From Lachnospiraceae bacterium (GTDB lineage: Bacteria > Bacillota_A > Clostridia > Lachnospirales > Lachnospiraceae), in the NCBI GenBank assembly GCA_016291475.1, contig JAEEXJ010000029.1, positions 1-32,404 on the forward strand: 32,404 nt of DNA, in the 5' to 3' direction. The notes below the pieces were generated by a model. The model saw only the letters and a list, made by a program, of their open reading frames with translations, was not told where the DNA came from and ran no database searches. Of this stretch, positions 27,192 to 27,587 are shown piece after piece. Both the position numbers and the translations under genes were made by a program. Numbering within the stretch: position 1 is the stretch's first letter; each line of letters begins with the position of its first letter.

Positions 27192-27208
27192 TCTAACTAG
27201 ATTCATCC

Positions 27209-27240
27209 AAACCTCTCGAATATATTTCGGGAGGTTTTTT
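27209..27240 (+). terminator. Terminator of yajC
   Basis: A 12 bp stem with one T-G wobble (27209-27220 with 27226-27237) and a 5-base loop, running into T6 at 27235-27240. Confidence 0.93.
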
Positions 27241-27244
27241 ATTG

Positions 27245-27518
27245 TGAATAAATAGTTTCTTGTAAAAGGACTTTCAGCGTCATGTGTATATTTTTATGGA
27301 CTTTTTTACGAGCTTAGCTGTTCTTGGGAGCTCATCCGCCTAAGCACAATTTCACCTGGATGGTGAAATTAGCAGGCACTGAGACATGGATGTCGAATGC
27401 CTGCGGTGCGTAGTCCTTGGATTATATGAGTTCCCATAGAACAGCTTAGCGAGTAAAGCAGGGAATAAAAATATACACATGGGGTTGAAAGTCCGTTGGA
27501 AGAATGCATATTTATTCA
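27245..27518. repeat. 274-base element with long inverted arms and two inner hairpins
   Basis: Most of the gene-free stretch 27192-27622 is one large imperfect palindrome. Nested arm pairs are 27245-27254/27509-27518, 27268-27276/27486-27494, a perfect 17 bp pair 27281-27297/27465-27481, 27305-27309/27453-27457, 27312-27324/27438-27450 (one T-T mismatch) and 27326-27335/27426-27435. Arms are separated by size-matched internal loops, and one junction is a tandem GA/GA in a CGAG/CGAG context. The centre holds two hairpins: 27348-27356/27362-27370, and 27372-27378/27398-27404 with an inner GACA/TGTC. No ORF of note lies inside. It is either a structured noncoding RNA or a miniature inverted-repeat element; the strand is undetermined. 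Confidence 0.85.
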
Positions 27519-27558
27519 TAAATCGCAATAAATGAATAAAATTGGATACCTCAGAACC

Positions 27559-27587
27559 TTGAAAAATAGGATTCTTTCGAATATAGT
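27559..27587 (+). promoter_or_regulatory. Promoter of leuB-ilvD-ilvB
   Basis: TTGAAA (27559-27564), exactly 17 bases, TATAGT (27582-27587). Predicted start near 27594, leaving a leader of about 29 bases, too short for a T-box or other attenuator. Confidence 0.7.

Follow-up and report, generated by a model that had tools for sequence, protein, structure and literature searches.

A palindrome between yajC and leuB in a Lachnospiraceae bacterium is a copy of TwoAYGGAY, an RNA family that is mobile in part

What is the 274-base palindrome with a branched apex that lies in the gap between yajC and leuB on a contig of a Lachnospiraceae bacterium (positions 27245-27518; JAEEXJ010000029.1)? An earlier note on the whole stretch analysed, 32,404 nucleotides and hereafter the window, found in the element none of the T-box, 6S or group II intron features looked for and proposed a candidate new noncoding RNA or a MITE-like repeat, naming a match to a known Rfam family as what would remove the first reading. 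The comparison with Rfam gave exactly such a match. Positions 27302-27460 of the + strand match TwoAYGGAY (RF01731) over model positions 1-168 with 69.7 bits and an E-value of 6e-10 for a search of the whole window; the gathering score is 43. A new RNA family is thereby ruled out, and the element is a copy of a known one, with a long variable stem. Its parts are listed below, together with two sites of the context that lie outside the element.

27209..27237, + strand: terminator-like site after yajC (context; motif-like site)
27245..27301, + strand: left outer arm, outside the Rfam model, pairing with 27461-27518 (MFE fold; arm-swap test over 116 copies)
27302..27460, + strand: TwoAYGGAY core, full RF01731 model 1-168 (Rfam, 69.7 bits; our own model R1, 79.5 bits)
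27309..27312, + strand: CGAG, 5' half of the tandem G-A junction, opposite 27450-27453 (sequence)
27348..27370, + strand: hairpin 1, loop UGGAU, GGA at 27358-27360 (MFE fold)
27372..27404, + strand: hairpin 2, tip ACAUGGAUGU, GGA at 27388-27390 (MFE fold)
27450..27453, + strand: CGAG, 3' half of the tandem G-A junction (sequence)
27461..27518, + strand: right outer arm (MFE fold; arm-swap test)
27559..27587, + strand: promoter-like site before leuB (context; consensus match only)

The architecture described in the earlier note was borne out by the sequence and the MFE fold. The arms base-pair from their tips, 27245-27254 (TGAATAAATA) and 27509-27518 (TATTTATTCA), with a perfect 17-bp block (27281-27297 opposite 27465-27481), the CGAG/CGAG junction and two apical hairpins, and the element does lie after a terminator-like site that follows yajC and before a promoter-like site of leuB. 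The minimum free energy is -135.5 kcal/mol, compared with a mean of -65.8 for dinucleotide shuffles (z -14.3), and none of 200 shuffles equals it. The reverse strand folds nearly equally (z -14.2), as is expected of a palindrome; consequently, the fold alone assigns no strand, and the element is placed on the + strand because the family match is there. Immediately upstream, no promoter-like site was found on the + strand. A third AYGGAY-type string (AUGGAC) is present at 27296-27301, in the internal loop immediately outside the core. A search of the whole window with model R1 gave no second copy, and nothing in a plasmid collection matches 27200-27560. At the other end of the window, positions 1-198 are the 3' part of a tmRNA gene (RF00023, model 182-374), truncated by the window start.

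The window copy is like the published TwoAYGGAY (RF01731; Weinberg et al., 2010; PMC2864571) in its full-length match, in its two GGA hairpins atop one stem and in the tandem G-A, a TwoAYGGAY feature carried here by the long stem. The loop of hairpin 2, AUGGAU, is an exact AYGGAY, and that of hairpin 1 is CUGGAU, with C for A at the first position and GGA in both. Compared with the Rfam model, the paired stem is about 57 bases longer on each side, and loop 1 reads CUGGAU/UGGAU, a 5-base loop in the MFE fold. Rfam gives the family the type label Cis-reg and places it in clan CL00106 together with E. coli CsrB, while the discovery table of PMC2864571 has the entry 'RNA? y, cis-reg n, switch n; human gut, gamma-Proteobacteria, Clostridiales'. 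In PMC4333381, TwoAYGGAY is proposed, from motif matches, as a CsrA-binding sRNA of Clostridia, two tandem-GAs are named for it and the external stem of the Rfam model is described as poorly conserved. Elsewhere a helix of TwoAYGGAY is reported to be extended by extra covarying pairs (PMC7657543), Rfam 15 is said to add two covarying pairs (PMC11701678), and it is termed a relatively unexplored motif (PMC11661157). In searches of an open-licence library, judged by titles and abstract openings, we recognised no paper that treats TwoAYGGAY as mobile or ties it to csrA across genomes.

Does the family fold as RNA, as the earlier note had suspected of the window element? Across 44 copies, 23 of the 24 consensus pairs have changed on both sides at least once with the pairing intact, which upholds a structured RNA. 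Outside the model, the 60-base outer arms pair with their own partners at a mean of -57.8 kcal/mol, compared with -17.9 kcal/mol when the right arm is taken from another genome (2758 sampled swaps), and own-arm pairing beats every sampled cross-genome swap in 116/116 copies, one of the 117 copies being too short for this test and for the stem-end test below. Swaps within the same genome are intermediate (-34.2 kcal/mol, n=524). That is, the outer arms beyond the Rfam model vary in sequence between copies and are complementary within each, a result that is new here.

The same can be followed at a single locus, since P6A3, from a sister species of that of the window, has an orthologous copy between yajC and leuB. 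There, leuB is 87.8% identical and its upstream flank 88.5%, whereas the arms are only 67-76% identical, with many gaps. For 88 pairs that could be aligned on both sides, 60 are unchanged, 12 have changed without loss of pairing (in 8 cases through changes on both sides) and 16 are broken. The counterpart of the 17-bp block in P6A3 is a perfect 16-bp block of different sequence, and both the loops and the pairing of the arms are retained.

How, then, did the element come to lie between yajC and leuB? With R1 it was detected next to leuB in the window and P6A3, whereas all 79 other leuB loci gave no match (79/79); in 40 of these 79, a yajC match precedes leuB by under 700 bases. Most economically, the element was inserted into a conserved yajC-leuB pair in a single lineage, at a time when the window species and P6A3 had not yet split, and has been kept since; loss in all other lineages is formally still conceivable. 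Over 117 copies, the genes flanking the element are oriented relative to it as ++ in 30, -- in 33, +- in 32 and -+ in 15, with 7 undetermined, and the downstream gene runs in the same direction in 47 and is opposed in 68. Such mixed orientations therefore argue against a leader position and against a fixed host transcript.

In addition, of 17 close pairs, with cores separated by under 600 bp, 15 are head to head, 2 are tandem and none is convergent, as counted by eye among the listed matches (binomial p 7e-8; 14/16 without one pair that rests on a 38.9-bit match). Divergent promoters and a composite insertion unit are both possible reasons for this bias, and a promoter search between head-to-head pairs, run without a control, gave weak scattered matches. 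In one such pair, on contig C1 of P6A3 (~262900-263500), the outer arms overlap in one stretch able to pair with either side.

The number of copies per genome ranges from 1 to 50 among 19 genomes searched more fully, and P6A3 holds 5. In G144, a number of the 50 matches begin no more than a few hundred bases from a contig start, which looks as if assembly had been interrupted by the repeat. G177 and G123 have groups of copies that share about 90-95% identity across ~300-370 bp and have defined ends of the GATTCGGGTGTCAAAAGGT type. Terminal inverted repeats (TIRs) were found in 9/9 copies of G177 and 4/8 of G123, and similar ends in 3/8 copies of G061 and 2/6 of G043. Among the six copies of the window and P6A3, 0/6 have a TIR, and no 11-mer is common to the arms of at least three P6A3 copies.

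When anchored on the TIRs of G177 and G123, 7-bp direct repeats are perfect in 11/30 elements versus 23/870 cross pairs; the register was picked by scanning registers, and in 2000 permutations the mean identity was at most 0.562, compared with 0.724 observed. From the same inner edges, repeats of 6 bp are perfect in 1/30 and those of 8 bp in 0/30. The TIRs and the 7-bp target duplication (TSD) amount to transposition in G177 and G123, which is new here and accounts for the high copy numbers. Therefore, the MITE-like origin that the earlier note had left open holds for part of the family, in these two related genomes; for the window copy no TSD or TIR was found. The note had also treated covariation and insertion duplications as mutually exclusive, and TwoAYGGAY has both. 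It should be noted that a family-wide TSD search at the stem ends (n=116) gave no clear enrichment (at least 6/7 identical in 14.7% of own ends versus 9.8% of controls; 7/7 in 0.9% versus 0.7%), and that no TSD of the window copy was found by this method, which also gives 0/9 in G177, where the TIR-anchored test succeeds, because the stem ends overshoot there.

Thirteen of the 30 TIR-bounded elements are 59-189 bp long, too short for core and arms. Five loci of G177 (L231, L232, L237, L240 and L241) are short inverted repeats with the same TIRs and no core, as if the apex had been deleted. Nearly all exact TIR hits in G177 have a partner no more than 420 bp away, one hit close to a contig end being unpaired, and among them no long TIR-bounded element and no partner transposase was found, Y1_Tnp being the sole transposase family searched. 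The elements of G177 and G123 are like MITEs in that they are non-coding, ~300 bp long and present in many copies, with inverted ends, a 7-bp target duplication and internally deleted forms. They differ in that a single long hairpin, enclosing a conserved strand-specific RNA core, makes up the whole body of TwoAYGGAY, and in that no autonomous partner was found; the window copy differs further in having no recognisable TIR or TSD. REP/BIME palindromes, which go with RAYT transposases, are intergenic and often occur in head-to-head pairs, like TwoAYGGAY. However, Y1_Tnp (PF01797) was found in G123 and P6A3 and not in G177, G043 or G144 (2/5 genomes), and the elements of G177 and G123 have 7-bp TSDs, so that mobilisation of the RAYT/REP type was rejected.

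Which part of such an element is then most strictly kept? Loops were counted in the model alignment, a crude hairpin finder having misread many second hairpins (its counts were dropped; three clipped loci, L092, L093 and L097, had been left out of its survey). The alignment has 115 unique rows from 121 matches in 100 sources, a subset of the loci. GGA is present in hairpin 1 of 102/115 copies, in the hairpin 2 region of 105/115 and in both in 97/115, and 18/115 lack it in one loop or both. In each GGA, the second G and the A are 99-100% conserved, as is the C-G pair closing hairpin 1, and the first G is 89-90% conserved; conserved loops are favoured here, since the copies were found by models that score the loop columns. 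Of the seven columns with the highest conservation, six belong to a loop or to the closing pair of hairpin 1, and the remaining one falls in the linker that joins the two hairpins. A recurrent variant that has lost the first G, ACGAU, replaces AYGGAY in some copies (L094, L108, L109, L117 and others); since this G is absent from it, the variant is not expected to be a CsrA site. CsrA is a homodimer with two RNA pockets, and its consensus site is RUACARGGAUGU. The tip of hairpin 2 in the window copy resembles this consensus.

If the loops have to do with CsrA, are the genomes that carry them also those that carry csrA? In the P6A3-family sample of 299 genomes, RF01731 was found in 45, and csrA in 44 of these versus 110/254 of the others (Fisher p 1.7e-13). 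In the class sample of 391 genomes, RF01731 was found in 36 (27 above the cut-off), with csrA in 31/36 versus 94/355 (p 2.2e-12) and in 23 of the 27; both p-values are overstated, the genomes not being independent. Six positive genomes are common to the two samples, and 9 candidates were scored per genome in the family sample and 7 in the class sample. Genomes with TwoAYGGAY are thus enriched for csrA, which is new here. The positives in which csrA was not detected, of unstated completeness, are G169 in the family sample and G473, G514, G553, G571 and G613 in the class sample, and two of these six have at least seven TwoAYGGAY matches listed. Flagellin, searched in the positives only, was found in 45/45 of the family sample, and FliW in 42/45; consequently, csrA is inseparable from motility in these data. 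P6A3 has both csrA and fliW. G144, by comparison, gave a csrA match of lower strength than most genomes and no match to FliW.

Based on these results, the account that we favour, at about even chances, is that the window element is a resident member of a hairpin family which is mobile in part, occurs in flagellated Clostridia that mostly bear CsrA, and is able to present paired CsrA sites. TwoAYGGAY would have spread, at least partly, by transposition making 7-bp target duplications; the + strand RNA would form one long stem lifting two adjacent GGA hairpins, both of which, given the two RNA pockets of the homodimer, a single CsrA dimer could clamp; and several copies might jointly act as a CsrA decoy, by analogy with CsrB. 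CsrB/RsmB (RF00018, clan CL00106, the same clan) shares with TwoAYGGAY several GGA hairpins that are proposed to hold CsrA (PMC4333381). CsrB is one gene of 369 bases in E. coli K-12, whereas TwoAYGGAY has two GGAs per copy and up to 50 copies, and its CsrA binding is putative. CsrB carries many more GGA motifs than one TwoAYGGAY copy.

A purely selfish palindromic repeat of the MITE type, whose fold and GGA loops serve the element itself (transposase recognition, or stability of the hairpin as DNA or RNA) and whose link to csrA reflects circulation in flagellated Clostridia, is a real possibility, though a somewhat unlikely one. The copy numbers, the TIRs and TSDs, the many elements too short for core and arms, the free orientation towards flanking genes and the fact that flagellin is as good a partner as csrA all agree with it; the near-invariant, strand-specific loop letters do not, nor does the copy of the window and P6A3, which has not moved and has retained its fold despite the turnover of its arms. 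Decidedly unlikely is a CsrB-like sRNA gene of the ordinary, non-mobile sort that has a promoter of its own and became multiplied by duplication. It would suit the clan shared with CsrB and the close pairs, head to head as divergent genes might be, but the window has no + strand promoter-like site just upstream, the overlapping arms of the P6A3 pair leave little room for promoters, and TSDs in two genomes and copy numbers up to 50 also count against it. A cis-regulatory leader of leuB is very improbable, despite the position upstream of leuB on the same strand and the Cis-reg label, since the promoter-like site of leuB is downstream of the element, the other leuB loci lack it, the downstream gene is opposed in 68 copies and co-directional in 47, and the discovery table, as quoted, has 'n' for cis-reg.

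Could mutation by itself have made the arms complementary? Template switching, which corrects imperfect palindromes and is published as a mechanism for RNA hairpins (PMC8794818), can yield matching arms without selection; therefore, functional weight is placed here on the loops and not on the arms. The arms indeed evolve faster than the flanks and are still complementary. However, an element whose stem is shaped by mutation and unselected throughout is scarcely probable as the explanation, since it leaves the conserved loop letters and the association with csrA unexplained. For the arms alone, template switching may well hold, and it is compatible with the hairpin family presenting paired CsrA sites. 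A chance or decayed palindrome, for which nothing in favour was found, is for practical purposes ruled out by the fold z-score, the Rfam match, the covariation and the arm swaps.

Returning to the paired CsrA sites, we infer that the window copy is transcribed, that CsrA binds it and that the loops are retained through CsrA titration; a role as CsrA decoy is the best available idea for TwoAYGGAY. The genome-wide association with csrA and flagellin agrees with the published CsrA proposal and makes it directly testable. The wider proposal, in which TwoAYGGAY is a transposable CsrA decoy whose tens of copies in a genome set the amount of free CsrA and thereby flagellar and carbon control in Lachnospiraceae and other Clostridia, is tentative and rather unlikely as a whole. 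The window copy is ordinary by itself; of the results on TwoAYGGAY to which it led, the most useful are the mobility of part of the family and its link to csrA and flagella. The long arms further illustrate that covariation by itself cannot separate selection on RNA from palindrome-correcting mutation. If CsrA binds TwoAYGGAY RNAs, mobile elements would be a source of RNA sponges for regulation in gut Clostridia, and CsrA activity would be tuned by copy number.
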